Source: a virus
Strand: one strand, 5' to 3'
Length of the DNA stretch: 64,000 bases
Virus record (IMG/VR): IMGVR_UViG_3300027833_000022
Location: 1 to 64,000 of that record
Shown here piece after piece: positions 6,501-60,810 of the stretch; within the stretch, counting starts at the first letter, position 1, and every line of letters starts with the position of its first letter. Both the position numbers and the translations under genes were made by a program. The notes beneath the pieces were generated by a model. It searched no databases and was not told the DNA's origin. It worked only from the letters and a program-made list of their open reading frames with translations.

Positions 6501-6804
6501 CGATATATAGCGAACCTTCGGATAGATATAAATCTCTCCATTTCATAGTTGGTGATCCAAGATCGTAACCTGTTGTTCCGTCTGAATCTATTGTTGGGAT
6601 AATGTGACCTGACATGAATAGATCGCCATTACCCGATATTCCTTGGTTATTTCCTGCTACGCCTGCTATTGCGGTATCTACGTAGACTTTTGTTGCTGCA
6701 TGATCTGTCTGGGTAGGTGAACCAGTGATGGATAAATTACCACCAATCTGCGAATCGCCATTGGTTATAAAACCACCTTCCATATTAAAACGTTTTTGAC
6801 TCAT
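538..6804 (-). CDS. Giant tail fibre with collagen-like tracts and three repeated modules
   Basis: This 2088-aa protein is probably a virion adhesin. Residues 1-250 are an attachment region almost identical to that of the next fibre (6958-10206), with G-S-P-x-x-x-x-H-x-x-T-K-x-Y-V-D repeats. Residues about 252-378 are a collagen-like Gly-X-Y tract (GATGATG, GPAGPQG, GIQGIQG). Three long homologous modules follow, each starting '(D)FVA-G-LP(N/D)G' and ending 'SVEAG-A-S-TSLLLT', separated by shorter Gly-X-Y stalks. Each module contains repeated 'GT(V/I)SGT(T/S)ITFG' strands, suggesting beta-propeller or beta-prism repeats. The C-terminus is a short domain ending VTGFSLA. An AAAGGAG site precedes the ATG. 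The general fibre role is well supported; receptor and fold are not known. Confidence 0.85.
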
Positions 6805-6833
6805 GATTAAGCTTCTCCTTTAGTTAACTGTAC

Positions 6834-6841
6834 TATTTATG
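6834..6841 (-). promoter_or_regulatory. T4-type late promoter (CATAAATA)
   Basis: The minus strand reads CATAAATA 30 nt upstream of the giant fibre ATG at 6804. It matches the NATAAATA late box of marine T4-like phages and lies in a 36-nt leader (6806-6841) repeated exactly upstream of the neighbouring fibre. Confidence 0.7.
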
Positions 6842-6884
6842 GAAAAACTATAGTCAATTAAACTCACATACATTATAGCCACAA

Positions 6885-6909
6885 AAAAGCCCACATTATG
6901 TGGGCTTTT
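6885..6909 (-). terminator. Rho-independent terminator
   Basis: An 11-bp perfect stem (AAAAGCCCACA / TGTGGGCTTTT) with a 3-nt loop, followed by a T-run on the minus strand. It lies 49 nt beyond the stop of the 1082-aa fibre. It is symmetrical enough to act in both directions. Confidence 0.85.
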
Positions 6910-6957
6910 ATTATCTAGTTGATATTATTGTATTTTCAATAACAACATCGATATATC

Positions 6958-9900
6958 TTATGCTATCTTGATTAACATTGTTGTGTCAGTAAGTGCCATT
7001 CCAATTTTAACTGCATCTTCACCAGTAACAGTACTGATACCGCCTTCTTTTTGAGCATAGTAAATCGATCCAGCAGTCAACCCAGTAAATCCAGTCATCT
7101 GTCCATCAGTCTGAACAGATACACTATTACCTGTTAAACCATCCTCAGATGAGATGCCTATCAATCTATCAGCAGAAAGATTACTTACATCGGGTGAGCT
7201 GTGCTGGTTTACTATGGCTGCACCTGTCATTTCCATACATGATATATATCTACCAGTGTTACCCAAGTTAACATGCATACTATATTTACCATGTGCTGCT
7301 GTCTGTTGGTTTAATGCTGCTCCATGAGCAGAAGATGCATTAATTGTTGTGCTTACAGGATCAGTAGTTACAATAGTAATCTCGTTTGCATCCGGCGTTA
7401 CTACCTGACTGTCAGTAACGTTAGATATCGTACACTTGATAAGGTAGTCAGTTCCAATCATAATTTCAGTATCATCATGCGGATTGAAACAAACATTCTG
7501 TGCCGTTTCTTGATCAGCCATATTACCCATTGTTGAACCTGTAGACAAGATGACATCTCCAAGGTCCCTTGCTGTTCCTACTGTGACCGAGCCACTACCT
7601 TCATTGAATACAGTACCTATAACAATATCTGTTTGAGCATGAGATGAAGGACCAGTTAGTGATTTAACTACTAATGCAAATCGTCCACCTGTACTTGAAT
7701 CAAAATTAGGTTCCCATGCAAAACTCTTTCCTCTGAAATAAGACGTTGCGTGATCACCAATGGACACCGTATCATTGGGAGAAAAGGTATCGCCAACAAT
7801 ATCAACAACCTGTACGCACGAACCACCAGAAGTCTTACCAAAAGCCAATAGCATCTTGTTCCCATCATCTGGGAAGAATCTACAATAATCTGAGTTAGAA
7901 GTTTGCATGCCAGGAGAATACGTAGCTAACACGTTAAACGTAGTATCACTTGTCAGTTGACATAACTCAACCCTTCCGTGTTGTCTACTAGTCTGAATAA
8001 ATCTGCCAGATACGGTAGGATGCAACGAAAACGATCCATAACTATAAGATCCACCGAAAGTATGAAAACCGCCTAGATCAGTTAACGCTAATGTACTTGC
8101 GTCTATACTGAATCGCAAGGTCACACTATTTGGACCTGAGCGAAACCAAACAATACCTTCATTGACTGGATCAAACTGAGAGTCAAGACCAGAAGCTGAT
8201 TGCGCAGTACCAGTTGCAAGACCAGCACGCAGGCTTGGTCCCCAAGTTACTGATCCGTCTGCTGCAACCAAACCAACGTTATGTTGTGGTGTTGAGTCAC
8301 CAGCAGAAACCATAAATCTGTTAGGATTAAACGGATCTACCGAAACATAATAATTATTATTATTAGAAGGTATAGCATGACTGTGTGTTCCAGTATTTGG
8401 ATATGCTATTCCTTCTAGTATCGAAGCAGTTTGACCCGGATTCAGATATGGCGTTTCAATCTTTCCCGATGCATTCATTATAACTGCATCACGAGCATCT
8501 ATATTTGTAGCAAGTTCAAGACTAATTGTGGAACTTGAACCACCACCAGTTGCACCATCTGCACCTGCTGGTCCTGCTGGTCCTGCTGTACCTTGTGGTC
8601 CTGCTGGACCTGTTGCGCCAGTTCCTGCTGCTGCTAATATTTTAGCATCAATTTCAGATTCCATTGGAATCGTTGCATTCCAAGTTGGTGCGGCTGATAT
8701 TTCCATGTAAAATGCACTGTGAGAGCCGCTTGCGTAGGTTATGAATTCAAGAGAAGATGCTTGACCATGTGTAAATAAGAGACTCGTGCCGGGTATCTGC
8801 ATACCAGCATTAGTTGATATATTAGAAATTAATGTATTATTATTCTGATCATATATATTAAATTTTCCCCTAAGTGCAGCACTTGTACCTTGTACCAATG
8901 CATAATTGCCATTATCATAGTCTATTCTCGTCAATCCAATATTATGCTGTGTCCAATCAGAGAACCAATTTGAAATAGTAACTGGTGAAACAAATGTTAT
9001 TGTTTTCGGACCAGAAGTATTATATACTACGAATATATTATTTGTCTCACCAGTAGCGTTGATTGTAACACCCGAAGACACTGATGCAACATGAGAAGCA
9101 GTAAGCTGCTCTGATCCAACTGCGGCTACCGTCTTTTTCCATTCGAAGGTGGATGGTTTAAACCAAGCAAGATCAATAGTAGATGCAGCAGGTTCAGATT
9201 CTTGCATATACACATTATCAAAACTTGCACCTGCACCATCTGCACCATCTGCGCCATCTGCGCCTGCTGCGCCATCTGCACCATCTGCACCATCTGCACC
9301 AGCAGGTCCTGCTACACCATCTGCGCCAGCAGGTCCATCTTCGCCTTGTATACCTTGGATTCCCTGTGGTCCTGTTGCACCAGATCCCGCTGGTCCTTGT
9401 GGTCCCGCTGGTCCTGTTGCACCTGTTGCGCCTGTTGCGCCTGTTGAGCCTGCGTTGACTCCGCTAATTTGAGCATCTACGTAAGCGATAGTTGCTTTCA
9501 ATGCTAACTCATTTGTCATTGTACTTGCGAAATTAGCATCATCACCAAGTGCATTTGCTAATTCATTCAACGTATCTAGTGCGCCTGGCGCACCATTAAT
9601 AATATTTGATATTTCTTGATCTACGTAACCTTTTGTAGTTACATGGCCTGCCGAAGTTGGTGATCCAACATTAATAATTTGATTATTATCTAGATCGACT
9701 TTGTCGCCAAATACAACTGCATTGCCACCTTGGTCGGTAATTTTCATACCTGTCGCCATTTGCAATGTTGCTGCCATGTTTATAGTAGTATCAGAATCGA
9801 GTGTTAATACTCCCGTACCTGTAACTTTTGTTGTGAGTGATTGATTCGGATCTGCTTGAACAACAATAGTTCCACTGTTTGATTCAATAACCTTTTGACC

Positions 9901-10206
9901 ATCGATATATAGCGAACCTTCAGAAAGATACAAATCTCTCCATTTCATCGCTGGTGATCCAAGATCATAACCTGTTGTTCCGTCTGAATCTATTGTTGGG
10001 ATAATGTGACCTGACATGAATAGATCGCCATTACCCGATATTCCTTGTTGATTTCCTGCTACGCCTGCTATTGCGGTATCTACGTAGACTTTGGTAGTTA
10101 CGTGGTCGATAAGAGTAGGTGATCCAGTAACGGATAGATTACCTTCTACCTGTGAATCGCCATTGGTTATAAAACCACCTTCCATATTAAAACGTTTTTG
10201 AGCCAT
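6958..10206 (-). CDS. Tail fibre paralogue with collagen-like stalk
   Basis: This 1082-aa protein is probably a second adhesin sharing an attachment site with the 2088-aa fibre. Residues 1-250 differ from that protein at only a handful of positions, and the 36-nt upstream leader is identical. A Gly-X-Y stalk occupies about residues 252-330, a unique domain follows, a second short Gly-X-Y stalk lies near residue 550, and then a distal module. That module ends 'GLTAGSIYYAQ' and 'IGMALTDTTMLIKIA', a divergent form of the terminal motif in the paralogue. Near-identity at one end and divergence at the other fits a duplicated adhesin that has exchanged its receptor-binding half. It has its own late promoter and terminator. 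Confidence 0.85.
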   Translation of the reverse strand: MAQKRFNMEGGFITNGDSQVEGNLSVTGSPTLIDHVTTKVYVDTAIAGVAGNQQGISGNGDLFMSGHIIPTIDSDGTTGYDLGSPAMKWRDLYLSEGSLYIDGQKVIESNSGTIVVQADPNQSLTTKVTGTGVLTLDSDTTINMAATLQMATGMKITDQGGNAVVFGDKVDLDNNQIINVGSPTSAGHVTTKGYVDQEISNIINGAPGALDTLNELANALGDDANFASTMTNELALKATIAYVDAQISGVNAGSTGATGATGATGPAGPQGPAGSGATGPQGIQGIQGEDGPAGADGVAGPAGADGADGADGAAGADGADGADGAGASFDNVYMQESEPAASTIDLAWFKPSTFEWKKTVAAVGSEQLTASHVASVSSGVTINATGETNNIFVVYNTSGPKTITFVSPVTISNWFSDWTQHNIGLTRIDYDNGNYALVQGTSAALRGKFNIYDQNNNTLISNISTNAGMQIPGTSLLFTHGQASSLEFITYASGSHSAFYMEISAAPTWNATIPMESEIDAKILAAAGTGATGPAGPQGTAGPAGPAGADGATGGGSSSTISLELATNIDARDAVIMNASGKIETPYLNPGQTASILEGIAYPNTGTHSHAIPSNNNNYYVSVDPFNPNRFMVSAGDSTPQHNVGLVAADGSVTWGPSLRAGLATGTAQSASGLDSQFDPVNEGIVWFRSGPNSVTLRFSIDASTLALTDLGGFHTFGGSYSYGSFSLHPTVSGRFIQTSRQHGRVELCQLTSDTTFNVLATYSPGMQTSNSDYCRFFPDDGNKMLLAFGKTSGGSCVQVVDIVGDTFSPNDTVSIGDHATSYFRGKSFAWEPNFDSSTGGRFALVVKSLTGPSSHAQTDIVIGTVFNEGSGSVTVGTARDLGDVILSTGSTMGNMADQETAQNVCFNPHDDTEIMIGTDYLIKCTISNVTDSQVVTPDANEITIVTTDPVSTTINASSAHGAALNQQTAAHGKYSMHVNLGNTGRYISCMEMTGAAIVNQHSSPDVSNLSADRLIGISSEDGLTGNSVSVQTDGQMTGFTGLTAGSIYYAQKEGGISTVTGEDAVKIGMALTDTTMLIKIA

Positions 10207-14916: not shown

Positions 14917-16473
14917 CTATAAAAATGACAATGGCATTGGGTCATCGTAGTCATTATCTAACCCTTCTTCCATCAAATACTCATATGCGGTATCTTCATA
15001 ATTGGTTACTTCTTGTGCCATTCTTATGATTAATACGAGCGCCATGACTAAATCATCATTTTCACCTTCTTTTGCACCATAACTATTGCCACGAGAAATA
15101 AATACCTTCAGTTCACGTAATAGATTCTTACTTGCTATTTCTAACTTATCAGTCTCTACCCAATGCTTTAATTTAGCACATGCTGCTATCTTTGATTTAT
15201 GTGTAGTAGTAAATCCTTTACGATATGCCTTTGTATTACCATGCTTCTTACGTTCACTCAAGAATGTCCCTGGGAAGTATTCTTCGCCTATCTCCTCAAC
15301 GCATACCAATCCTGCTTCGCCCATTGAATTGTTTTCTAGACTATAATATATTTCAGATTGTTGCTTTGTCTCATCATCTATGTATATTGCTATCTTTTGT
15401 AATATTCTTACTTGCTGTTGTATAGTCGTTTTATTATGTTGCCATTCAGCGACTTGGTTCATGCCAGGCAATTCGTACACTTGTATCGCTGCATTATCTC
15501 CACCAGTTCCTAAACTAGGATCTAATGCAATAAGATATAAATTACCTGTTTTCAACGGCTTATACCAACGCACTTGTCCTTGCATTGCCCATGCTTCTTT
15601 TGCTTCCATCATGGCTAATTTCAAACTACTCACCAATGTCTCATCGAATGCAATAAATTCATTTTTATGTTCACGTCTGAATTTTTCTTCACCAATCTTA
15701 CCTTGTTCTATTCTTGCCCACTCTTCATCTCTGTCTGGATGTCTATTCCATATTGCATCATAAGAGGCAAAACTATTAATACCTAAATCAGTTTCGTTAC
15801 CATACTCATCTGTCTTCTTTTGTGAATCTCTCCAAATCTGAGCAAACTGATCATCGTCTTGGTTTGGTGTAGATGTTATAATACATTTACCACCAGTTGC
15901 TAATGTAGGCGATAATGCAGTCCAAAAATCTCTTGCAATGTTTGGACGTACAAATGCAAACTCGTCCAAGTATGCTAGTGATATAGACATACCACGTCCA
16001 GTGTTATCAGTGGTAGCTTGTGCAATAATACGACTACCATTATCAAATTCTAATGAACCTTTGTTATATGATGTTGCGCCCGCTCTCAAGTAATCAGGTA
16101 ATGTCTCATATGCAAATCGAATACGCTGCATAATCTCTTGTGCACCACTATATTTGTGGGCTGCAATCAATATTGTCTGATCTGGCACGAACATAGCATA
16201 CCATAATAGATAGCCAGCAGCGCATGTTGATTTTCCCATTTGTCGAGAAATCAATGCTACCGAGTTTCTATAATTATGATATACATCAACTAATTCTTCT
16301 TGAAAGTCAAATAATTCAAACTTCATTCTACCCTTAGTCGGATGTTGAATCCAACAATGAGTTCTCATGAAATATTTTGGGTCGTTAGCACATTTTGCTA
16401 ACTCTATTAGTTGATCTGGTGTATAATTTTCTTGTTGGTGAGGAGTTTTTACTAACTTCGTATCTGCTGACAT
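14917..16473 (-). CDS. 17: Terminase large subunit gp17
   Basis: A 518-aa packaging motor ATPase and nuclease that drives DNA into the prohead through the portal. The ATPase domain has Walker A SRQMGKST at residues 76-83 and Walker B with catalytic Glu in YLDEF at 168-172. Motif III-like TSTPN follows at about 200-204. The RNase H-like nuclease domain shows 'LIALDPSLGTGGD', with Asp318 as the first metal ligand, and a late acidic motif 'EGENDDLVMAL' near 481-491. The length is typical of marine T4-like gp17 (T4: 610). The small subunit gp16 lies about 2.6 kb upstream rather than adjacent. The start codon lies only 5 nt from a late box, which is odd. Confidence 0.95.
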   Translation of the reverse strand: MSADTKLVKTPHQQENYTPDQLIELAKCANDPKYFMRTHCWIQHPTKGRMKFELFDFQEELVDVYHNYRNSVALISRQMGKSTCAAGYLLWYAMFVPDQTILIAAHKYSGAQEIMQRIRFAYETLPDYLRAGATSYNKGSLEFDNGSRIIAQATTDNTGRGMSISLAYLDEFAFVRPNIARDFWTALSPTLATGGKCIITSTPNQDDDQFAQIWRDSQKKTDEYGNETDLGINSFASYDAIWNRHPDRDEEWARIEQGKIGEEKFRREHKNEFIAFDETLVSSLKLAMMEAKEAWAMQGQVRWYKPLKTGNLYLIALDPSLGTGGDNAAIQVYELPGMNQVAEWQHNKTTIQQQVRILQKIAIYIDDETKQQSEIYYSLENNSMGEAGLVCVEEIGEEYFPGTFLSERKKHGNTKAYRKGFTTTHKSKIAACAKLKHWVETDKLEIASKNLLRELKVFISRGNSYGAKEGENDDLVMALVLIIRMAQEVTNYEDTAYEYLMEEGLDNDYDDPMPLSFL

Positions 16474-16529: not shown

Positions 16530-16838
16530 CTATTTTGATATGATATTTTTTATTGAAATCTCTAAATTTTCTAAAAAGGCATCAATGTCAATATCATCTG
16601 ATTCAACAACTTCTTCAATCTCTTCTACTGTTTCTGCAACTGGAGGATTTCTTGATAATTTACTGTCATCTACCCATCCTTCTGCATCACTAGTTAGTGA
16701 CTTAATCAATACTTGATCCCAATCATTAGGATTAATACCTACTACTTCATACGATTTATTTTTATATCCAACAATATCACCAACCTGCAAAGGGGTTTCT
16801 AGTAATATAGATTCCATTATCTTTCTCATATCGTTCAT
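16530..16838 (-). CDS. Small protein with capsid-targeting-like N-terminus
   Basis: A 102-aa protein of unrecognised family. The N-terminus MNDMRKIMESILLE resembles the amphipathic capsid-targeting peptide of T4 internal proteins (consensus MKTYQEFIAE), with L-L-E at residues 12-14 as a possible gp21 cleavage site. Residues 17-60 (VGDIVGYKNKSYEVVGI) look like a small beta barrel of SH3 type. The C-terminal half is very acidic and helical. It lies directly upstream of gp17 with 56 nt between. A role as an internal head protein is inferred from the N-terminus; a packaging accessory is possible. GGAACG precedes the ATG. Confidence 0.75.
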   Translation of the reverse strand: MNDMRKIMESILLETPLQVGDIVGYKNKSYEVVGINPNDWDQVLIKSLTSDAEGWVDDSKLSRNPPVAETVEEIEEVVESDDIDIDAFLENLEISIKNIISK

Positions 16839-16857
16839 AATTCGTTCCTTAAATAAT

Positions 16858-16908
16858 TGCCGTTTTTTATATATATAGTAGCGAATTACATATAATGGAT
16901 AACGGCAT
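16858..16908 (-). promoter_or_regulatory. Leader hairpin with a possible 13-codon leader peptide
   Basis: In the 135-nt gap after the 510-aa protein gene, a strong AAGGAG site precedes an ATG at 16908 that opens a 13-codon frame ending at 16867. A 7-bp inverted repeat (16858-16864 TGCCGTT / 16901-16907 AACGGCA) pairs the start region with sequence just past the stop. This is a possible attenuator of the downstream small gene, or a fortuitous pairing. Nothing else is recognisable in this gap. Confidence 0.3.
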
Positions 16909-16973
16909 CCTCTCTCCTTAGATAATAAAAACGGGCAAGCCAGTAATTATAACAGTCCTAAGGTCTAAGTTCT

Positions 16974-18506
16974 TTATAGTCCTGCGTTTCTAAGCAAGAT
17001 TGCCAATTCTTTAGATTCTTCCAATGATTCTTCTATCGTAGGCTCTTTCTTATCACCATCGTATTCTGGCTCATCGTCCATTGTAGGCTCTTTCTTAGCT
17101 AACATATCTTCAAAAGCGGCTTTCTGTGCTGCGCTCTGTGCTTCAGCAAGTTCGGTTCCTGTATTAACTCCAGTGTCGTCGCAATAGTCACAACCTTCTC
17201 CTTCGCACTTAGAACATGGATCATCTGACATTGAAGCAGATTCTTTAACGTCTTTATCTTTTTTAAGATCGTCCTTGCCTTTGCCGTCTACTGCATAGTC
17301 TGGGACCATTTTTCCATCTGGACCTTTGACCATAGTCTTTTTCTTAGATTCTTCATATAATGCTTTCATGGTGTCTACTGTATGCTCAGTTACGCTAACT
17401 TTTAGATCCTGTGCGCCCATATAACTCTTCAATGACAAGTTTACTGGTTGTGCAAACTCATAAGGATCGCCATGCGATGTAGGTTCAGTTTCACTTGCAT
17501 CTGCTGGTGAATTAGCCCATTCGTTAATCTTACGTTCTATTGCTTCTTCAGATAGACCTGCATTATGTAACATACTTACTAATTGAGTAGTATCCATTGT
17601 TGGAGACTCCTCTAATGTAGATGATTCTGTTACCCAGTTTTCACCCATTTCATCATCACAATCATGCTTGCAATCTGTAGTAGGCTTGTGTATTTCATCA
17701 CCACAATCTTTACATACTTTCTTTATAGATGCTTCGTATAAGTCGTCAGCATTTTCTTGGTCGTACTTCTTAATAAAGTCTTCTTTAGACATTGTTTCCG
17801 AATCATCAATCATTGCTGCTTTAACTTTACCTTCGTTCATTGAATTCGTCATATTATTTGTATCCTTTTCTTCTGAACGCACTTCTTCGCCTTCTGCGAC
17901 TGCGTCTATAAATGTTACTGGTGTTAATACTGTGCCACCTGTTTTATGATCAAGACGCAATGCCATGTATGTGTCATCTATTTTTGTCTTATAATCACGA
18001 TGTATTTTAGCATAATCTGCTTTGGTCATTTCTATCTGACCTTCGTCATTAACTTTTGCCATTGGTCCCATTGCTTCTTCAACGTCAGTTTTACCATATG
18101 TTTCACAAGGATCTTTTCCACAACCACAATTTTTCTTTTCTTCTTCAACTGCTTCTGTTTGCATTGCGTTTACAAATGCATCAGTATAATCACCCCAATT
18201 TTCACCATCTTCATGTACAAAATTCATACCATCGCCAGTAACACTGACAATTTTGAATTCACCTTCATGTACCGAACCGAATGCTTCTATTTTAATATCG
18301 ACTTGAATATCATTAACATCGATATCATAGTCTTCTGATCCAACTGATGAACCAAATCCATTTGCTACCGCAGTAAATTCTTCACTATCGCTTGTACGTT
18401 GAATATTATCTAATGTAACATTTCCGTCTACTATGACATTCGTTACTTCCATTTCGTTCATTATAGGATTGATTGATTCTAGTAACGTTCTCATTGACTT
18501 ATGCAT
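16974..18506 (-). CDS. 510-aa Cys-cluster protein with capsid-targeting-like N-terminus
   Basis: Family unrecognised. The N-terminus MHKSMRTLLESINPIMNE has the form of a capsid-targeting peptide with L-L-E. Most of the protein is acidic and low in complexity. It holds three cysteine clusters: NCGCGKDPC (about residues 126-134), CKDCGDE plus CKHDC (about 265-285) and CSKCEGEGCDYC (about 432-443), the last resembling half of a DnaJ-type zinc finger. A motif (L)xxLLxNAGL occurs at about 310 and again at the C-terminus (LAILLRNAGL). The ATG at 18506 overlaps the upstream stop by 8 nt, with AGGAGAAG upstream. A zinc-binding internal head or core protein is the best inference. Confidence 0.75.
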   Translation of the reverse strand: MHKSMRTLLESINPIMNEMEVTNVIVDGNVTLDNIQRTSDSEEFTAVANGFGSSVGSEDYDIDVNDIQVDIKIEAFGSVHEGEFKIVSVTGDGMNFVHEDGENWGDYTDAFVNAMQTEAVEEEKKNCGCGKDPCETYGKTDVEEAMGPMAKVNDEGQIEMTKADYAKIHRDYKTKIDDTYMALRLDHKTGGTVLTPVTFIDAVAEGEEVRSEEKDTNNMTNSMNEGKVKAAMIDDSETMSKEDFIKKYDQENADDLYEASIKKVCKDCGDEIHKPTTDCKHDCDDEMGENWVTESSTLEESPTMDTTQLVSMLHNAGLSEEAIERKINEWANSPADASETEPTSHGDPYEFAQPVNLSLKSYMGAQDLKVSVTEHTVDTMKALYEESKKKTMVKGPDGKMVPDYAVDGKGKDDLKKDKDVKESASMSDDPCSKCEGEGCDYCDDTGVNTGTELAEAQSAAQKAAFEDMLAKKEPTMDDEPEYDGDKKEPTIEESLEESKELAILLRNAGL

Positions 18507-19011
18507 CTTTCTTCTCCTGCTCTTTTTTCAATTTTAACAATTCTTGAACAAAAGAAGTATTGTACTTATCACCGAAGAATTCTTCTGCATTTATCTCATC
18601 TGCTTCTGAGTATGTACTATCAGACAATAAACTTGAAACTTCTTCATCATCTGATTTTTCGTTTGATAATGCTTGTTCTCTCTGTTCCAATGGTTCTTTG
18701 TCTGAACGAACTTTCATAAAGCCGTCGCTGATGCCAAGTAATGCTTGGATTTCGGTTTGTATTTGATATGCACTTGCTGGTAAATTTGTTTCAAACTCAA
18801 CAACAAATATCTCGTATCCACGTAGTTGTGGAAAGTCATAAGGTGTGCTTTGTAGCATCAACTTAGTAGGTGCGCTTACTTTCTGTACATCGTACTTTGC
18901 TAAGTGATTCTCAATGCGAGATAAATCATCTCCAGATAATTCCTTTGCCAACTTAATGCGGAAAGTATATGTGTTTTTTGATTCTGTCAAATATTCTGTA
19001 AAGGACTTCAT
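18499..19011 (-). CDS. Putative internal head protein with capsid-targeting N-terminus
   Basis: A 170-aa protein starting at 19011 (MKSFTEYLTESK), chosen because AGGAG lies 10 nt upstream; the longer frame from 19062 lacks a site. The first 11 residues closely match the T4 capsid-targeting sequence MKTYQEFIAE, with the gp21-type cleavage motif L-T-E at residues 8-10. Residues 12-105 look like a compact alpha/beta domain ('YTFRIKLAKELSGDDLSRI'); the remainder is acidic and ends in a Lys/Glu helix. By analogy with T4 IPI-IPIII it would be packaged in the prohead, trimmed and injected. The body is not recognised. It has its own late promoter. Confidence 0.8.
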   Translation of the reverse strand: MKSFTEYLTESKNTYTFRIKLAKELSGDDLSRIENHLAKYDVQKVSAPTKLMLQSTPYDFPQLRGYEIFVVEFETNLPASAYQIQTEIQALLGISDGFMKVRSDKEPLEQREQALSNEKSDDEEVSSLLSDSTYSEADEINAEEFFGDKYNTSFVQELLKLKKEQEKKDA

Positions 19012-19037
19012 GGGTTTAATTCTCCTAATATTATAAC

Positions 19038-19045
19038 TATTTATC
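19038..19045 (-). promoter_or_regulatory. T4-type late promoter (GATAAATA)
   Basis: GATAAATA on the minus strand, 27 nt upstream of the chosen start (19011) of the putative internal head protein. Its position supports that start. Confidence 0.65.
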
Positions 19046-19071
19046 TTTATTGTAAAAATCACCAGACTTAA

Positions 19072-19626
19072 TTATTCTGCTGTATCATCTTTAATATTTT
19101 TCATAATTTCTGCTAACATCTCTGAACGATTTCCTATCAATCTACCATCAATTGATTCTGGTCCATCATCTGGTAAGCCTTTATTGATAATATGATTTAC
19201 TTTTCGATTATCCATATCAAGACGTTCTTTGCGCATTTGTAACTCAATCATTTTGATTTTTTTATCCATCTTTGTTTGTTTCGCGGTTATCGCTGCTGAT
19301 AACATTTTACTTGCGCTGTCAAGCAATGCTGCTGCATTTCTATCGTCTACATTCTTTGCCAAATCTACTATATCATCAAATGCATCTATCGCTTTTGTTG
19401 CATAATCGTCCATCTCTTTATCGATTGCGTCTAAACCAAGAACCATAGGCAGTGCTGCATCTACTTTCATGGACATATCCATAGTTGCTGATTTATTTGA
19501 TATTTGTTCGGTGAGTTGCTTTATCACTTCTTCTGATGATGGTTCTATTTCATTATCATCATCGAAATCTAATGATATATCTTCTATAGGAGGTAAATTA
19601 AATGTATCGCTTAATTTTTGTGTCAT
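19072..19626 (-). CDS. 16: Terminase small subunit gp16
   Basis: A 184-aa DNA-recognition and regulatory subunit of the packaging motor. The central region (about residues 75-150) is a long helical hairpin: 'AFDDIVDLAKNVDDRNAA', then 'LLDSASKMLSAAITAKQTKMDKKIKMIELQMRKE'. This matches the arrangement of T4 gp16 ('A-K-N-A-D-x-P-R', long coiled coil). The C-terminus 'NRSEMLAEIMKNI' parallels the T4 'SPTELMDEI' end. The N-terminus is acidic and unstructured. It overlaps the preceding gp4 stop by 4 nt (ATGA), so the two are coupled. It is separated from gp17 by three genes, unlike T4, where 16 and 17 are adjacent. Confidence 0.75.
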   Translation of the reverse strand: MTQKLSDTFNLPPIEDISLDFDDDNEIEPSSEEVIKQLTEQISNKSATMDMSMKVDAALPMVLGLDAIDKEMDDYATKAIDAFDDIVDLAKNVDDRNAAALLDSASKMLSAAITAKQTKMDKKIKMIELQMRKERLDMDNRKVNHIINKGLPDDGPESIDGRLIGNRSEMLAEIMKNIKDDTAE

Positions 19627-21471: not shown

Positions 21472-23868
21472 TTAACTTAAATCACCTGTATTTACAATAC
21501 GAATTGGGATATAAATAAATTCTGCCGATTTCGTAGGTTCAATTGCAATATCAACATAAATTTCATTGCGATCAATGCGTGCTGGTGTATTATTGGTAGT
21601 ATCACATACTATACTGTAGTCATACACACCACGATTAATTTGAATATTAGATAAGAAACCATCAAACGTTTGCTTAACATTATCACGAATTGATTCATCA
21701 TTTGGTTCAAACAAATATGGGCGAGAGATAACTGAAAAACGCTCACGTAAATATGCAACTAAACGAGCAACGTTGACGCGATCTAGTGCACTTGCTGATG
21801 CTGCTAATGTCTTCTGACCAAAGATAATAATACCTTCTGCTGGGAAGTTAACAATTGGATTCAATTTATTTAAATACATTGCATCACGATTTCCCTGTGT
21901 CAATGAAACTGCTACAAATTCGTTTTCTGAATTGATGTAACCAACATTTGATGCATTCTGAACAACACCACGTGTCAATCCTGCTGGTGCAAACCATTGG
22001 TAACTAACATTGTCGTTATATGCATATGTGTAAAGAACACTATGCGATGAAGGAGCAACTACACTTGAACCAGTTACTGGATCAGTCGTAAGTACACTAG
22101 GATAATAAGTTGCTGCATAAGTATTTTTGCTTACTAACCCATCTTCTCCATTCTCTGTTGCACTAGTTCCTTGTACCCAATTTATTGCATCAGTTGGATT
22201 CAAACGGAATGGACTATCTGCGATAACGAATGCTGTTTGATTGCGATCTGTATTTAATGTAACCATCTCGTCCATCAACTCTGGATAACCCGGTGCTGCG
22301 ATCAAACGGAACTGAATAGTTTCTTCGCGTAGTGTCGATCCTGATGCACTTGCTTGCATTGCCTCTGCTACAACTTTACGTTGTGCTTTACGACCAAATG
22401 ATCCTGCACCTGATGCTGCATTTCCAGCAAAGTTGCGCCATTTCCAATCAGTTGTTAATGTTGAATCATACTTACGTACTGTATTCTTTGAACGACACAT
22501 GTTAACTGCTGAAGTACCAACTGCGAATAATAATGGGTTAGGACCATTTGCCAATACGCCTGCTGCGTCTACAAATGCACCTGCTGAAACATCTAAGTCA
22601 GAAATATCACCAAATACTACACCATCAGATGTACTTTGGTCTGTATTATCTTTAACAATCCATGCTGAACCATTGCTACGATAGATAACTGGATAGTTAT
22701 CTTCATCAGTGTCAACCCAATAATCACCATCTACGCCAACTACTGGAGCAGATGAAGTATAAGATACATTAGTAGCCTTCTTCCATTTTTGAACACCACC
22801 ATCAAGTGCTACTTCAAAAAGAGCCAATTCATTTACTGCTGAATCAAACCAAATAGTACCCGTAGTAGCTGCGCCAACTGGTGCAGTTGTTTGTACAGTT
22901 GAAACCATATCTACGAATGCTGAAGTAGTTGAGTCATAACGATGAATAGAAACAAAACCATCATCTATATCAAGCCAAATGTCACCTTCTGCCAATACAC
23001 GCGCTGTCGCTGCTGTACCATCTTGGAAAGTATCACCGATTACACCCGTAGGTGCTGCTGCTTGTGCATAAATTGCAGACTGTGCTACAAATTCGCCCGC
23101 TGTTGTAGTGAATAATGAAATATCATAATCAATTCCTACGCCTGGTGTGGTTGTCTTAATCCATACATCGCCTACTGTTGGTCCAACTGGTGCTGTGTAA
23201 TGTGGTGCAAATGATGCTGTTCCTGCGCCCCATGCTGCGTTTAATGCAACCCATGATCCGCCTTCTCCAATCCAATAACGTACATTAGTAAGAGTTACTA
23301 CTTGTTCGATGGTAACATGATAGTTTCCATCAACAACTGTTGCGGTAGGTGTTGCTGCTGCTGATGCTACAATTTCAACGCTTGGTGTTGCTACTGCCCA
23401 ACCACTTGCTGAGTATTCAAAGATACCAAACTTAGATAGTGTTGGATTTACCCAATAAGTATTAGTTGCTGGTAAGCCAACTGGCTCAACTGTCTTGGGA
23501 CGAAGTTCTGCTAGGTCCACATCTGCGCGTACAATATATGCTGCTGATGCTTGACCTAAGAATGAATATGCTGCTAATAGACCGTAATCATTAGTTTCAT
23601 CTCCTTGTTGTACTGTACTTCCTACTGTACGAAAATCTACATTTCCGAAGTATTGAGTTAGTTCGCGCTGTGATGTTACTAAGATCGGACTTCCCGCTGT
23701 TGCTGATTTAGTATATTTTGCAATACCATCTGCTTCTGTGCCAGTTGGGTCAACTTTATCTTGACCTGTGGCGATAAAAATCATTGGTACTGTACCAGCA
23801 CCTGCTGATCCGTATACCGACTCGTCTGTTATTGATACCTGAGTGCCAGGTGATACAAGATTTGCCAT
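21472..23868 (-). CDS. 18: Tail sheath protein gp18 with a repeat insertion
   Basis: A 798-aa contractile sheath subunit. The N-terminus 'LVSPGTQVSITDES' and the C-terminal half are typical of T4 gp18: 'GFLSNIQINRGVYDYSIVCDTTNN', 'DVNVARLVAYLRERFS' and 'NEIYVDIAIEPTKSAEFI'. The protein is longer than T4 gp18 (659). The extra length is an insertion at about residues 130-410 (22639-23481) made of about five 30-60-residue repeats. Their pattern is '(A)P-G---GD-W-D-----I--Y----W'. Such repeats occur in surface-exposed virion decorations, so they probably project from the sheath. It has its own late promoter variant and terminator. Confidence 0.95.
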   Translation of the reverse strand: MANLVSPGTQVSITDESVYGSAGAGTVPMIFIATGQDKVDPTGTEADGIAKYTKSATAGSPILVTSQRELTQYFGNVDFRTVGSTVQQGDETNDYGLLAAYSFLGQASAAYIVRADVDLAELRPKTVEPVGLPATNTYWVNPTLSKFGIFEYSASGWAVATPSVEIVASAAATPTATVVDGNYHVTIEQVVTLTNVRYWIGEGGSWVALNAAWGAGTASFAPHYTAPVGPTVGDVWIKTTTPGVGIDYDISLFTTTAGEFVAQSAIYAQAAAPTGVIGDTFQDGTAATARVLAEGDIWLDIDDGFVSIHRYDSTTSAFVDMVSTVQTTAPVGAATTGTIWFDSAVNELALFEVALDGGVQKWKKATNVSYTSSAPVVGVDGDYWVDTDEDNYPVIYRSNGSAWIVKDNTDQSTSDGVVFGDISDLDVSAGAFVDAAGVLANGPNPLLFAVGTSAVNMCRSKNTVRKYDSTLTTDWKWRNFAGNAASGAGSFGRKAQRKVVAEAMQASASGSTLREETIQFRLIAAPGYPELMDEMVTLNTDRNQTAFVIADSPFRLNPTDAINWVQGTSATENGEDGLVSKNTYAATYYPSVLTTDPVTGSSVVAPSSHSVLYTYAYNDNVSYQWFAPAGLTRGVVQNASNVGYINSENEFVAVSLTQGNRDAMYLNKLNPIVNFPAEGIIIFGQKTLAASASALDRVNVARLVAYLRERFSVISRPYLFEPNDESIRDNVKQTFDGFLSNIQINRGVYDYSIVCDTTNNTPARIDRNEIYVDIAIEPTKSAEFIYIPIRIVNTGDLS

Positions 23869-43941: not shown

Positions 43942-45105
43942 TTACTGGAAAGACAATGCCGTTGCATCAACGCCAATCTTAGCCAAGTAGTCTGCTGCAT
44001 TACCAAGAGATGAAGCCTGGTTATTCAACTCAACATAACCATAACGAGTCATGAATGACACAGTAGGTTCGAATGTTGATGGATCTAGTACAGTACCAGA
44101 AGACATTAGTGGAATATATGGGCAGTAGAATGCTGCTGCGTCCATTTCGCCGTCACCCTTATATCCTACTAGGATTGGAGTAGCGTCAGAAGCGTACTGA
44201 TCAACAAATACTTTCATAGTGTTGTTCAACATACCAACAAACTTAGTGTTAGTAGGTGCTTCAAAAGGACCTTCAGTTGTACGTGCAAACGCAGAAGTAG
44301 TAGCAGATTGTAATACAGTCAACATAGTTGGTGAAACTACAACGTAGTTACCAGCGCCACGACGAGTACGTGCTGCGATCAAGTTTGCTGCGCGATTAAT
44401 CAAAACTGCTAGTGCTGCGTGCTGATCACCTACGAAAGTTGCTACGCCAGAAACGTTGCCTTGATCGTATGTATCGGTTGCAGTACCAGAAAGAGCGCGT
44501 AAAGAAGTAAGAACTTCTTGGTCGATCTCTGCTGTGATTTCTTGTGCAAGTGCTTGCATGATTTCAGCTTCAACGTCAAGACCGTGCATTGAGTTAGCAT
44601 CTTGTGCTGCTTCAAAAGTCCAACGTGCTGACAACTTACGTGTCTTCGCTTCAACAGTCTGCTTCAATACTTGGATTGAAAGCTTACGACCCGCTGATGC
44701 TTCAAGAGCTGAAGTTGCTGCTGGTCCACCAGTAGCATCATCACCAGAATAGCCTTTAGCGATAGCGAATGGAGACAATGCTTCGTCGCCTGCTGTTACG
44801 CCAGTTGCTGCTTCAGAATAACGCACACGCAATGTGTGAATTTGTCCAACAGGACCAGTCATTGGCTGAACACCAACCAATTCGTTAGCGATTACGGTAG
44901 GCATTACACGACGGATGACAGGTAAAATTACCTTGTTCATAGTAGCGATGTTGCCAGCCATTGTAGAACCAGTTGCTGCTGATTCTGTTAAATAGTTCTT
45001 AGTGTTTTCAAGCACAGATTCCATTACAGATTTCTTGTTGCCTGTTAAACCGTCAGTTAGAGCGTCTTTAGTTACGTTCCAGTTTTCAAATAAATTTTGT
45101 GACAT
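43942..45105 (-). CDS. 23: Major capsid protein gp23
   Basis: A 387-aa HK97-fold shell protein. The N-terminal prodomain 'MSQNLFENWNVTKDALTDGL' ends at 'NYLTE', a gp21 cleavage site after Glu41, giving a mature protein of about 346 residues. Core motifs are 'MNKVILPVIRRVMPTVIANELVGVQPMTGPVGQIH', 'EVLTSLRAL', 'RRGAGNYVVVSPTMLTVLQSA' and 'YCPYIPLMSSGTVLDPSTFEPTVSFMTRYGY', all diagnostic of gp23. It is much shorter than T4 gp23 (521). No separate vertex protein gp24 is seen in the window. It follows gp22 by 17 nt with AGGAG-like spacing, and no late box is visible in that short gap. Confidence 0.97.
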   Translation of the reverse strand: MSQNLFENWNVTKDALTDGLTGNKKSVMESVLENTKNYLTESAATGSTMAGNIATMNKVILPVIRRVMPTVIANELVGVQPMTGPVGQIHTLRVRYSEAATGVTAGDEALSPFAIAKGYSGDDATGGPAATSALEASAGRKLSIQVLKQTVEAKTRKLSARWTFEAAQDANSMHGLDVEAEIMQALAQEITAEIDQEVLTSLRALSGTATDTYDQGNVSGVATFVGDQHAALAVLINRAANLIAARTRRGAGNYVVVSPTMLTVLQSATTSAFARTTEGPFEAPTNTKFVGMLNNTMKVFVDQYASDATPILVGYKGDGEMDAAAFYCPYIPLMSSGTVLDPSTFEPTVSFMTRYGYVELNNQASSLGNAADYLAKIGVDATALSFQ

Positions 45106-45122: not shown

Positions 45123-46232
45123 TTAGCTTATACCAGCTAATTTTTTAAGGTTAATGATATCTGCATTACTTTCAGTACTTTGATCGTGTGTGCTAGTTTT
45201 ATCACCTGTGATCTCGCTAGTGCGGGACTCGTTAAGTTTTTGCGTAGTGCGTTTTTCAGTAGATGTAACAGTTTCATTCAAAACTGTGCCAATATACTTG
45301 TCATATGCTACAGTAAGTTTGCTAGTAGCAACGCTTTCAAGTAGATTTGACATTAACTCACGCTTGTCCTTCGACAAGGGCTTTAATAGATCAGCCATTA
45401 CGTTATTACGTTCAGCGCGTTCATTAACTCGCTTTAGCTTTTTGTTTGCTGATTCAATTAATGTTTCTTTTTCAGAAATAGTAGATTCTGATTCTGCTAA
45501 AGCAGTTTTCATATCTAATAGTTCAAGGCTTAATTTAGAAACCTGTGTGCCTTCTGCTAAATGTGAACTCATAAATTCAGTTGCAAAAGTTTCAAAAATC
45601 TTGCGTCCAAACATGTTTTCTTTAGCTAGCATGATATCTTCTTTAAGTGTGCTTAACTCGTCAGTCACTGTTGATTCAACAATGTTCGCTAATTTTGCAC
45701 TTGCTTTAGAGATGAATTCACGCTTCGTCTCGGCAATCATTTTCTTGCCTTCTTGTACCAATTTAACTTTCTCTGTTAACAGATCCTGTTTATCTTGGTG
45801 GAAATCGTTAAGTTCAGTAGTTAGTTGCTCCATTACAAAGTCTTCTAACTTTTCAAAGTTTCCTTCTTGTAGTTTGCGATCATCGCGCAATTCTGTAATT
45901 TCTTTCTTTAAAGTTTCCATTACAAAAGTGTCCAGCATCTTAGCATGTTCCGCAACTTGACTTGTGTAAGTCACCTTTGCGTCTACTGCTGCTTTTTTGT
46001 CTGCTGCGAATTCACGTAATTCCGTTGTAATTGTATCTGACATCATTGCGTCTAAGGCTTCCACCATTTGCTGCTTGTCAGTTTCATAACGATTTGCGAA
46101 CTCTTCACGAAGTTCATTAGTCAATTCTTCACGTGCTTCAGTTAACTTAGTTTCCCAAGCTTCTGATAGTGTAGAACGAACTTCTTCTGAAAGAACTTCT
46201 GAACTTAGGAGTTGTTCAATTGCATTTGCCAT
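45123..46232 (-). CDS. 22: Prohead scaffold protein gp22
   Basis: A 369-aa core scaffold that shapes the prohead and is later degraded by gp21. It is almost entirely helical and highly charged, with repeated 'ELREEFA', 'LTEAREELTNELREEF' and 'MVMETLKKEITELRDDRKLQE' heptad stretches. Residues about 270-305 contain 'RNNVMADLLKPLSKDKRELMSNLLESVATSKLTVAYDKY', the conserved family core of marine gp22. It ends 'NLKKLAGIS'. Its ATG shares a base with the gp21 stop (TAATG) behind AGGAGAAA, fitting the fixed 21-22-23 order. It is longer than T4 gp22 (269). Confidence 0.92.
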   Translation of the reverse strand: MANAIEQLLSSEVLSEEVRSTLSEAWETKLTEAREELTNELREEFANRYETDKQQMVEALDAMMSDTITTELREFAADKKAAVDAKVTYTSQVAEHAKMLDTFVMETLKKEITELRDDRKLQEGNFEKLEDFVMEQLTTELNDFHQDKQDLLTEKVKLVQEGKKMIAETKREFISKASAKLANIVESTVTDELSTLKEDIMLAKENMFGRKIFETFATEFMSSHLAEGTQVSKLSLELLDMKTALAESESTISEKETLIESANKKLKRVNERAERNNVMADLLKPLSKDKRELMSNLLESVATSKLTVAYDKYIGTVLNETVTSTEKRTTQKLNESRTSEITGDKTSTHDQSTESNADIINLKKLAGIS

Positions 46233-46873
46233 TATTTTCTCCTAATATCTAGGTTATTGATCATATTAAGTACCTCTTCCTGGAGATACTTTTCGGCTTT
46301 TGTATCGTGATTTATAGCTTTCGCAACGTCCATAATAATGTCGCTACGTCTACCATTCATGATAGCCTCGTAGAGTGGGTCTGGATATGCATCTGGAGCA
46401 CTTGGATTTGCAACAATATCAACTGTTACAATTTCAAATTCCGACACATTACCATCTGCACCTACGTTACCACTACCGCGACTCGACACGCCTAATTTTA
46501 CGCCATTGTCCAACAAAGTTTTACATATGTTGCCCATTGGTGTTGGTAATAGTTTTAGCTTGCCATAACCATCATTACCGTTCATCCACATTTTTTCAAT
46601 TATGTGTGATACTCGGTCCAGATTCACTTGTAGATCATCTGGGTGGTCTGCTTCGCCCAACACTGAATAACCACCTTGGATTTTTTCTTGAACCGAATTA
46701 ACTGCTTTTCGAATTTCCGAAGATGGATATACGCGCTGATTTTGATTGCGTGCATCACCTTGAACAAATATACCTTCCATGTACAAATCTTTTCCACCTT
46801 TGCCGTTATCCACAGCTTCAGTAACAATGTTTGCTTGATCGAAAGTTAAATGTTCATTTAGTGTGTTGCGCAT
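46232..46873 (-). CDS. 21: Prohead core protease gp21
   Basis: A 213-aa serine protease (herpesvirus assemblin-like fold) that matures the prohead by cutting after Glu in L/I-x-E sites. Conserved elements are 'MEGIFVQGDARNQNQRVYP', 'GYSVLGEADHPDDLQVNLDRVSHII' with catalytic His77, and 'GVKLGVSSRGSG' with catalytic Ser at 130-131, followed by 'FEIVTVDIVANPSAPDAY'. Length matches T4 gp21 (212). The substrates should include gp23, gp22 and proteins in this window with capsid-targeting-like N-termini. It overlaps gp22 by one base and lies 2 nt after the acidic prohead protein. Confidence 0.96.
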   Translation of the reverse strand: MRNTLNEHLTFDQANIVTEAVDNGKGGKDLYMEGIFVQGDARNQNQRVYPSSEIRKAVNSVQEKIQGGYSVLGEADHPDDLQVNLDRVSHIIEKMWMNGNDGYGKLKLLPTPMGNICKTLLDNGVKLGVSSRGSGNVGADGNVSEFEIVTVDIVANPSAPDAYPDPLYEAIMNGRRSDIIMDVAKAINHDTKAEKYLQEEVLNMINNLDIRRK

Positions 46874-46875
46874 TT

Positions 46876-47682
46876 TTATTGTTTCATACCGCGCTTCTCA
46901 GCACCATGACCGCGAGTTTCTGGCTTCAATGAAGCGCCTTCGCCAGGATGTGTTACACCCATGTCTTTTGCTGATTCGTCCGATAAGCCTTTCTTAGAGC
47001 CTTCAGATCCTTTTTCGCCAGTTGGAATTACTTTTCCACCCATGTCATTTTTGCCTGCAACTGGTGATGCTTTACCATCATCTCCTGCTGGCATTTCTGA
47101 AGGATGCATTCCATCTTTACCAATCTTTGTAAGATCAGCGGCTTCTTCTAATTCTTCATATTGCTCTTCAAATTCTTCTTCTGGCTCAATGTCAGATGCG
47201 AAATCATCGGCTGGAAGTTCATCAGATAACTCTTCTTTTTCATCGTCCATCTCATCGCCCATCAACTGTGCGAATTCTGCTTTAAGATCAGCAAGTGCAT
47301 CTTCAACGCTTAACATTGCGTCTTCGATTGCTGCTTCAGATTCTGGCTCCATATCCATGTCGCCTTCAGCGTCCATGTCCATTTCATCATCAGATGCTAA
47401 TTCAAATTCTGCTTCTGATTCTCCATCTTCGTCTTCCATTGCATACTCTTCTTCTGCTGCAATTTCTTCTTCGAATGCATCAACATCTTCGTCAAAATAA
47501 GATTCTTCAATCTCTTCTTCTTCTGAAATGTCATCTTCGACAATTTCATCCTGCTCCACAAGACCTGACCATATCTCGCGAGCTTTGTCTACAAAAGCTT
47601 CATGTAATAAATCAGATGCTTTATCACCTTCTCCATTTACTAGGCTCTCAATGATCTTTGAATAACGATCTTGTACGCTCAT
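46876..47682 (-). CDS. Acidic prohead core protein
   Basis: A 268-aa extremely acidic protein. Residues 1-35 ('DRYSKIIESLVNGEGDKASDLLHEAFVDKAREIW') are a helical, more neutral head. About residues 40-180 are almost entirely Glu/Asp/Met/Ala ('EEEEIEESYFDEDVDAF'), and the C-terminal 80 residues are Gly/Lys-rich and disordered ('GEKGSEGSKKGLSDESAKD'). The position between portal and gp21, where T4 has gp67 and gp68, points to a prohead core component that is cleaved to peptides at maturation. Identity with gp67 or gp68 cannot be shown from sequence. A late box lies upstream. Confidence 0.75.
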   Translation of the reverse strand: MSVQDRYSKIIESLVNGEGDKASDLLHEAFVDKAREIWSGLVEQDEIVEDDISEEEEIEESYFDEDVDAFEEEIAAEEEYAMEDEDGESEAEFELASDDEMDMDAEGDMDMEPESEAAIEDAMLSVEDALADLKAEFAQLMGDEMDDEKEELSDELPADDFASDIEPEEEFEEQYEELEEAADLTKIGKDGMHPSEMPAGDDGKASPVAGKNDMGGKVIPTGEKGSEGSKKGLSDESAKDMGVTHPGEGASLKPETRGHGAEKRGMKQ

Positions 47683-47888: not shown

Positions 47889-48077
47889 TTACTCTGACGG
47901 CTTACCATACATTGCTGTATTAACCGATTGCTCATTTTCGTATTCTGCTTTAGCCAATTCACGCTTATTACGAATTTTATTTAAATGCTTCAAAGTCAAA
48001 CGTGGTCTACGAGTATCATCAATATCCCACTTGTCTTCATCATTTCGTTCATCAATCGCTAATTCATTAAATCTCAT
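47889..48077 (-). CDS. Small basic protein downstream of the portal gene
   Basis: A 62-aa protein starting at 48077 (MRFNELAIDERND) behind AGGAGAG; it overlaps the gp20 stop by 11 nt. An acidic N-terminus is followed by 'DTRRPRLTLKHLNKIRNKRELAKAEYE', a basic helix. The 'RRPRLTL-HLNK-R--RE' pattern recurs in small proteins beside the portal gene of other marine T4-like phages as I recall. It may be a gp67-type prohead core piece or a portal-associated assembly factor; function is not established. Confidence 0.78.
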   Translation of the reverse strand: MRFNELAIDERNDEDKWDIDDTRRPRLTLKHLNKIRNKRELAKAEYENEQSVNTAMYGKPSE

Positions 48078-60201: not shown

Positions 60202-60810
60202 ATGCGAATATCAGATATCATAACAGAAAGTATAGCAAAGCAAATCACTGTGTTTTATGGCGGACGTTTTCAGCCAATGCACTCAGGACACTTTGCGCTG
60301 TATAAAAAATTAGTTAACAAGTTTGGTGCTGATAATGTATTTATCGCGACTACATTTGGCAAAAAACAGCAATCAATGCACTCAGCAGACGATTACTCAA
60401 CCGACCCATTCACATTTGAAGAAAAGGCATCTATCATGTCTAAGATGTTTGGTGTGCCCGTAAATCATATTGTTAATACACAACCATATAAGCCAGATGT
60501 TTCATTGGTAGGCAGAGATAAGAGTAATACAGCAACAGTATTAGTATTCAGTGAAAAAGACGCTGGTAGATTAAAGCCTGGCGGTGTATTAGCACCGATG
60601 CCAGATGATATGGATAATTTACAGACAGAAGATGAAAATCGTGTATATTATATTGCGATGCCAATTGAGCAGGGTGGTATGAGTGCTAGTGATTTCAGAG
60701 AAGTTATGAGTAGTGACGCAGAGTTTGAAGAAAAGAAAAAAATATTTATGAAATTTTTTGGTAAATTCGATCAAGGTATTTTTGATTTCATTGAAGGCAG
60801 AGTGCGATAA
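60202..60810 (+). CDS. Nucleotidyltransferase with capsid-targeting-like N-terminus
   Basis: A 202-aa protein of the cytidylyltransferase-like superfamily (NadM/NadR/CoaD fold). The nucleotide-binding motif is 'YGGRFQPMHSGHFALYKKL' with HSGH at residues 27-30, and 'SASDFR' (161-166) matches the S-x-S/T-x-x-R motif. The substrate is not identifiable; NMN or another phosphonucleotide is possible, so a role in NAD metabolism is only a candidate. The N-terminus MRISDIITESIAKQ resembles T4 capsid-targeting peptides (I-T-E at 7-9). It lies in the late baseplate unit, not with nucleotide genes, so an enzyme packaged in the head and injected is an inference. Confidence 0.82.
   Translation: MRISDIITESIAKQITVFYGGRFQPMHSGHFALYKKLVNKFGADNVFIATTFGKKQQSMHSADDYSTDPFTFEEKASIMSKMFGVPVNHIVNTQPYKPDVSLVGRDKSNTATVLVFSEKDAGRLKPGGVLAPMPDDMDNLQTEDENRVYYIAMPIEQGGMSASDFREVMSSDAEFEEKKKIFMKFFGKFDQGIFDFIEGRVR

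Follow-up and report, generated by a model that had tools for sequence, protein, structure and literature searches.

Candidate T4-type capsid-targeting peptides on a head-region protein and a nucleotidyltransferase of a T4-superfamily phage

The capsid-targeting sequence (CTS) of phage T4 is textbook knowledge, and the locus described here raises the question of which proteins of another T4-superfamily phage might carry a peptide of the same kind. We analysed the first 64,000 bases (bases 1-64000, hereafter the window) of a 103-kb contig from a marine virus (IMGVR_UViG_3300027833_000022), which encode a T4-superfamily head and tail cluster and the phage's own gp21-type prohead protease (Table 1). 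A preliminary description of this DNA had drawn attention to that protease and to four N-terminal peptides, MKSFTEYLTES, MRISDIITES, MHKSMRTLLES and MNDMRKIMESILLET. All of them are present: three minus-strand open reading frames (ORFs) lie between the tail and gp4-like genes and the gene of the terminase large subunit (TerL), and a nucleotidyltransferase starts at 60202. We consider it quite probable that two of the four peptides, those of a head-region protein of 170 amino acids (aa) and of the nucleotidyltransferase, are removable capsid-targeting signals of the kind found on T4 internal proteins (IPs). The nucleotidyltransferase, mentioned only in passing in that description, is one of the two best cases. 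From the sequences we infer that in this phage both proteins would be packaged, cleaved and injected.

In the T4 CTS, MKTYQEFIAE, residues 4 and 7 govern targeting and residues 8 and 10 govern processing, and Asp10 stops processing but leaves targeting intact (PMC9026906). We wrote the motif M-x(1,2)-h-x-x-h-h-x-E from T4 genetics and calibrated it on T4, where it gave seven matches against 1.0 expected, namely IPII, IPIII, Alt, gp24, gp2, 61.1 and rnh, the first four of which are known gp21 substrates. Across the 103-kb record, the motif was matched by the 170-aa protein and the nucleotidyltransferase only and by none of 684 internal methionines; a looser form was seen three times against 1.05 expected by chance. 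MKSFTEYLTE aligns without a gap to the MKTYQEFIAE of IPII and IPIII. Hydrophobic residues stand at the positions that govern targeting in T4, residues 4 and 7 of the 170-aa protein and residues 3 and 6 of the nucleotidyltransferase, and a gp21-type cleavage motif, L/I-x-E↓S (arrow, predicted cut), sits just ahead of the folded domain in both proteins. The likeness extends to IPII/IPIII and Alt (MKTYQEFIAE and MELITELFDE, both cut by gp21) in the hydrophobic position and spacing, in the L/I-x-E at residues 8-10, in the gp21-type protease and in the presence of unrelated bodies behind one tag.

The same cleavage motif is found in the gp23-like major capsid protein, where the L-x-E (P3 and P1) is invariant in 24 of 24 distinct relatives and the site reads YL[TSQAM]E↓[SAT] or nearly so, with S, A or T at P1'. 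The phage's own gp23 and the 170-aa protein share an identical YLTE↓S, a cleavage site predicted in both. The gp21 homologue of the window would presumably have an L/I-x-E specificity, and the gp22-like scaffold contains 19 L/I-x-E sites against 8.1 expected.

The 170-aa protein matches the phrog_14802 profile over nearly its whole length (E 1.8e-18; residues 1-167 of 170 aligned to profile positions 1-165 of 179) and has a ferredoxin-like body behind an N-terminal helix; a fold search with its model in the PDB returned generic ferredoxin-like neighbours only. F4, Y7, L8 and E10 are invariant in the window protein and 18 relatives on viral contigs, some of which were found via the peptide itself. 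Its closest named relatives occur in the RaK2/121Q/GAP32/CBB group, PA5oct, Atu_ph07 and Phosso. The gene neighbourhood there is similar and includes structural, tail-tube and gp4-like genes; TerL lies nearby in PA5oct, Atu_ph07 and Phosso. The order gp4, 184-aa protein, 170-aa protein, disordered protein, TerL is identical in PA5oct. Over most of its length the 170-aa protein belongs to the 'virion structural protein' family that comprises phrog_14802, CBB_210, 121Q gp557 and PA5oct gp282. Virions of CBB were found to contain CBB_210 (13 unique peptides, 60.5% coverage; PMC5259590), and the PA5oct record flags its homologue as detected by electrospray ionization tandem mass spectrometry (ESI-MS/MS). 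We think it likelier that the 170-aa protein is a conserved part of the head than that it is an effector.

The nucleotidyltransferase scored 26.4 bits against Pfam PF01467 (CTP_transf_like; cut-off 21), which also matched 22 of 22 aligned members, and the signature motifs GGRFQPMHSGH and SASDFR can be read by eye. Its sole PDB sequence match was MJ0541 (1f9a, E 0.003), and the predicted activity is like that of a nicotinamide mononucleotide (NMN) adenylyltransferase. Relatives were collected by body peptides only, so that their N-termini were unselected, and their starts vary in sequence and length (MRISDIITES, MRYTDLLNEA, MRYSQLTEAE, MRYSDIILTEA, MLLRELTELMED). Nevertheless, L/I/V/M-x-E precedes the catalytic strand in 33 of 33 distinct relatives, in 32 of them at the tag position. 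When the extensions were shuffled, a mean of 11.8 contained L/I/V/M-x-E and 33 was never reached in 5000 shuffles, the 33 sequences being kin and hence not 33 independent events. Among these proteins the Glu shifts from residue 8 to residue 11, which shows that the site has survived insertions or deletions. In the structure model, which has a predicted local distance difference test score (pLDDT) of 86, residues 2-9 are the sole run of at least three residues below 50 and are modelled as a loose helix or appendage before the first strand.

We also scanned IMG/VR with degenerate DNA patterns for M-K-T-F-x-[EQ]-[YF]-L-x-E-[AS] and its Ser-3 version. Each of the two patterns matched at least 120 stretches, and a control pattern with the same residue kinds rearranged gave no match in IMG/VR. 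Among the matches listed, 244 of 245 lie at the start of an ORF that is 50 aa or longer or is cut off by the contig end, 239 of these 244 ORFs have fewer than 40 open codons upstream, and the 244 proteins fall into 54 similarity clusters once the first 14 residues are removed. On these sequences, a tag of the MKSFTEYLTE type, the only type for which this was seen, appears transferable to unrelated proteins. Again among the matches listed, the largest cluster, of 79, has a representative that matches the cytidyltransferase profile phrog_395, and the next, of 75, is made up of the 170-aa family; other clusters contain adenylate kinase (PF00406), ADP-ribosyltransferase (PF18760), DPBB, an NTP_transf_2 domain and DUF6267. 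The anti-CBASS protein Acb1 (PF23474, E 4.2e-17) is also found tagged, with the start MKTFLQYLSEAK (L406:8640-9131, plus strand), and is possibly a virion-delivered anti-defence protein.

Two studies of cyanophage virions report NMNAT-like and cytidylyltransferase proteins, an S-adenosylmethionine (SAM) hydrolase and kinases, allowing that these may be contaminants (PMC10665884, PMC9602691). With the CTS motif fixed beforehand, we compared the S-CREM2 virion proteins found by mass spectrometry with the other ORFs of that phage. The motif was present in 5 of 52 detected proteins and in 2 of 157 other ORFs (Fisher p = 0.011). The tagged virion proteins are a SAM hydrolase (MKDFDSFLEE), an APH/ChoK-like kinase (MKRFDAFLTE), the cytidylyltransferase ORF154 (MKNFSSFLTE↓A), ORF13 (MKDLHSFLTE) and ORF136 (MQTFSMFFSE), and all three proteins listed as regulatory in the virion table carry the motif. 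The ORF154 tag is of the same kind as that of the window's nucleotidyltransferase. Cytidyltransferases of isolates, found by their bodies alone, had a CTS-like start in 9 of 13 sampled. The virion-associated NMNAT-like and cytidylyltransferase proteins of the cyanomyoviruses S-CREM2, S-SCSM1, S-CBWM1 and S-SZBM1 are likewise nucleotidyltransferases, NMNAT-like as annotated by their authors, and excerpts of the two reports propose no packaging signal (PMC10665884, PMC9602691); to the cyanophage type, the nucleotidyltransferase of the window is no more than a distant relative (phrog_395, E 1.3e-7). The virions of S-CREM2 also contain the Cas9-like nuclease ORF12 (L592:7704-10313, minus strand); around residues 17-27 it has the sequence LRFASFMAEAA, which is similar to a CTS and may lie behind a misplaced start codon.

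The system is a variant of a known one, the T4 CTS, borne in this phage by a conserved protein of the head region and by a nucleotidyltransferase. The peptide would dock its protein onto the gp22/gp67 core during prohead formation, and gp21 would then trim it; the mature protein would remain in the head with the DNA and be ejected at infection, where the nucleotidyltransferase could act in the newly infected cell, perhaps maintaining NAD. We further lean towards the view that M-K-x-F-x-x-[FY]-L-x-E↓[AS] serves the T4 superfamily as a general packaging tag. With it, marine and giant phages would load members of dozens of protein families into the head for delivery at infection, among them NMNAT-like nucleotidyltransferases, SAM hydrolase, APH/ChoK-like kinase, adenylate kinase, ADP-ribosyltransferases and Acb1. 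This broader claim is supported by the sequences and by one small virion test. The cargo had previously been called undescribed; the T4 CTS is long familiar and cyanophage virion enzymes have been published, and what stands of that claim is that no paper in the collection searched connects the CTS with virion-borne enzymes of marine T4-like phages. If true, the injected protein arsenal of a phage would be readable from its sequence, giving a rule by which to predict what T4-like phages, many of them marine, inject, and anti-defence proteins could act ahead of any phage gene expression. Those who discovered enzymes in cyanophage virions could not tell cargo from contamination (PMC10665884), a question that a removable packaging tag would answer.

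Several observations weigh against a removable targeting peptide. The S-CREM2 enrichment rests on five proteins and one test, and the authors of that study note that enzymes in virion mass spectrometry may be carry-over (PMC10665884). Some of the N-terminal conservation among the 170-aa relatives comes from the way they were collected, MKSFTEYL having been one of the search patterns, and the presence of an S77 protease on 16 of 35 tagged contigs is suggestive at most, the control set being too small to use. Unlike the T4 IPs, neither protein is basic (net charge -12 for the 170-aa protein and -3 for the nucleotidyltransferase), their bodies are unrelated to the T4 ones, and one is a conserved head-cluster protein and the other an enzyme; basic charge is a trait of the T4 IPs and not of the CTS (PMC9026906). 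The cleavage Glu also varies between phages in the phrog_14802 family and, unlike in the T4 IPs, is lost in some relatives of the 170-aa protein. Because the P1 Glu has given way to A in PA5oct and XaC1, to D in RaK2 and to S in Phosso, while gp23 of the same four phages retains it, trimming is not general in the 170-aa family. By analogy with the T4 rule, which is established for Asp only, such homologues could be targeted but untrimmed; equally, the Glu loss may reflect a structural role of the helix.

In the latter case, the N-terminal helix would be an ordinary structural element, such as a contact in neck or portal assembly, and the 170-aa protein a fixed head or neck component. The helix is retained even where the Glu is lost, the gene adjoins gp4-like genes in most of the jumbo-phage relatives fetched, and the homologue is well covered among CBB virion proteins. 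We nevertheless regard this explanation as improbable, given that dozens of unrelated proteins, soluble enzymes included, begin in the same way and that L-x-E survives register shifts in the nucleotidyltransferase. Because targeting and trimming are separable in T4 (Asp10), loss of the Glu is also no argument against the tag. That the tag sends proteins elsewhere in the cell, to a membrane or a replication site, with their presence in virions due to contamination, was left open by the S-CREM2 authors as regards contamination; it is highly improbable for a near match to the proven T4 CTS that occurs in T4-superfamily phages encoding a gp21 homologue, with a cleavage motif equal to the gp23 site and with tagged ORFs enriched among virion proteins. 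Head proteins of phiKZ and SPN3US likewise have propeptides cut after Glu by a prohead protease (PMC5694885, PMC10052503), but there the protease and the motif have diverged (PMC9026906).

Whether all four proteins form one CTS cargo set, as first proposed, appears doubtful. Each has L/I-x-E within 14 residues, and residues 8-14 of the 102-aa protein read h-x-x-h-h-x-E. However, bare [LI]-x-E within the first 16 residues was found in 10 of 52 window ORFs against 6.4 expected from internal methionines, and we rejected it as evidence because this is near background. The proposed likeness to the T4 peptide holds in register for the 170-aa protein and the nucleotidyltransferase; the 102-aa protein, whose relatives are few and close, matches the loose form only, and the 510-aa protein matches neither form. 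The N-termini of the latter two, MRTLLES and MRKIMES, are more alike to each other than to the CTS and resemble the start of the virion protein CBB_214, MSNLRKLMES. In close relatives, the 510-aa start is kept as MHxMRTLMES and the 102-aa starts are MNDMRKLMEAVLQES-like. The hydrophobic spacing at the 510-aa position is unlike that of the CTS; more distant proteins there start MSDMDRILKLAGL or MNDLARILGLAGL without an early L-x-E, and most of the diverged ones lack L-x-E at residues 7-10. Both proteins are acidic (net charges -64 and -14 for the 510-aa and 102-aa proteins, respectively). They have another N-terminal helix, similar to that of other head-cluster proteins, and may be core-associated without being T4-type cargo. 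The assignment as internal head proteins is well founded for the 170-aa protein and the nucleotidyltransferase, with a T4-register CTS, a gp23-like site, many tagged proteins, and homologues or analogues in virions, and weak for the other two.

Table 1. Features of the window; portal, sheath and TerL were named from sequence and annotated relatives
Feature	Position	Strand	Remarks
Terminase large subunit TerL (gp17-like)	14917..16473	-	Marker of gene order
102-aa protein	16530..16838	-	Start MNDMRKIMESILLE; body judged SH3-like by eye alone; possible packaging signal
510-aa acidic low-complexity protein	16974..18506	-	Start MHKSMRTLLES; packaging signal doubtful
170-aa protein	18499..19011	-	Start MKSFTEYLTES; phrog_14802 'head and packaging, virion structural protein'
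CTS codons of 170-aa protein	18982..19011	-	MKSFTEYLTE; predicted cut after E10 (before S11)
184-aa protein	19072-19626		phrog_16202; conserved beside gp4 in relatives
Sheath	21472-23868		
gp23-like major capsid protein	43942..45105	-	
gp23 site L39-T40-E41	44983..44991	-	Predicted cut NYLTE↓SAATG; upstream of conserved capsid domain
gp22-like scaffold	45123..46232	-	Presumed core bound by tags
gp21-type prohead protease	46232..46873	-	Presumed trimming enzyme; PF03420 E 7.6e-26; phrog_207 E 1.6e-60
Acidic prohead-core protein	46876..47682	-	gp67/gp68 position; net charge -70; phrog_15696 'head and packaging'
Portal	48067-49722		
Nucleotidyltransferase	60202..60810	+	PF01467; NMN-adenylyltransferase-like; N-terminal extension
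CTS codons of nucleotidyltransferase	60202..60228	+	MRISDIITE; predicted cut after E9 (before S10)

Other candidate signals were tried and set aside. M-x-x-M-R-x-L-M-E-S as a second general tag was found in five T4-like-locus families and one chance-looking T4 match, which is too few, and LAG[LIV], present at the scaffold C-terminus (INLKKLAGIS), gave counts above shuffles yet small; L-x-x-LAG[LIV] recurs at the ends of several head-cluster proteins in relatives. Avoidance of L-x-E in mature bodies as a sign of selection was only mild in the 170-aa family (30 seen against 43.1 expected), and the nucleotidyltransferase family showed none (22 seen against 21.3). The T4-type late promoter TATAAATA was of no help, with 3 sites against 8.9 expected. 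The position of the 184-aa protein suggests a packaging role; as a candidate for the small terminase subunit gp16 it was not supported, a profile comparison with T4 gp16 giving no homology.

In T4 itself (NC_000866), gene 61.1 (18966-19130) starts MKTFKEFIKED and gp2 (gene 2, 76061-76885) starts MAIFQIINES, and both fit the CTS motif; the one paper searched for 61.1 contains no mention of it. Two similar-looking proteins of 105-110 aa in close relatives start MRFSEIVVED (G001:C1:1754, minus strand) and MRLADLIREN (G006:C1:109268, plus strand) and are perhaps another family with varied, motif-keeping tags. Two relatives (L021 and L022) have extra genes between the 510-aa gene and TerL, at +2052 to +4799 from the 170-aa gene, the first of which starts MNNMRKIMNILNED. 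At 538-10206 of the window, two large adjoining ORFs (2088 and 1082 aa) have near-identical starts and are likely duplicated tail-fibre genes.

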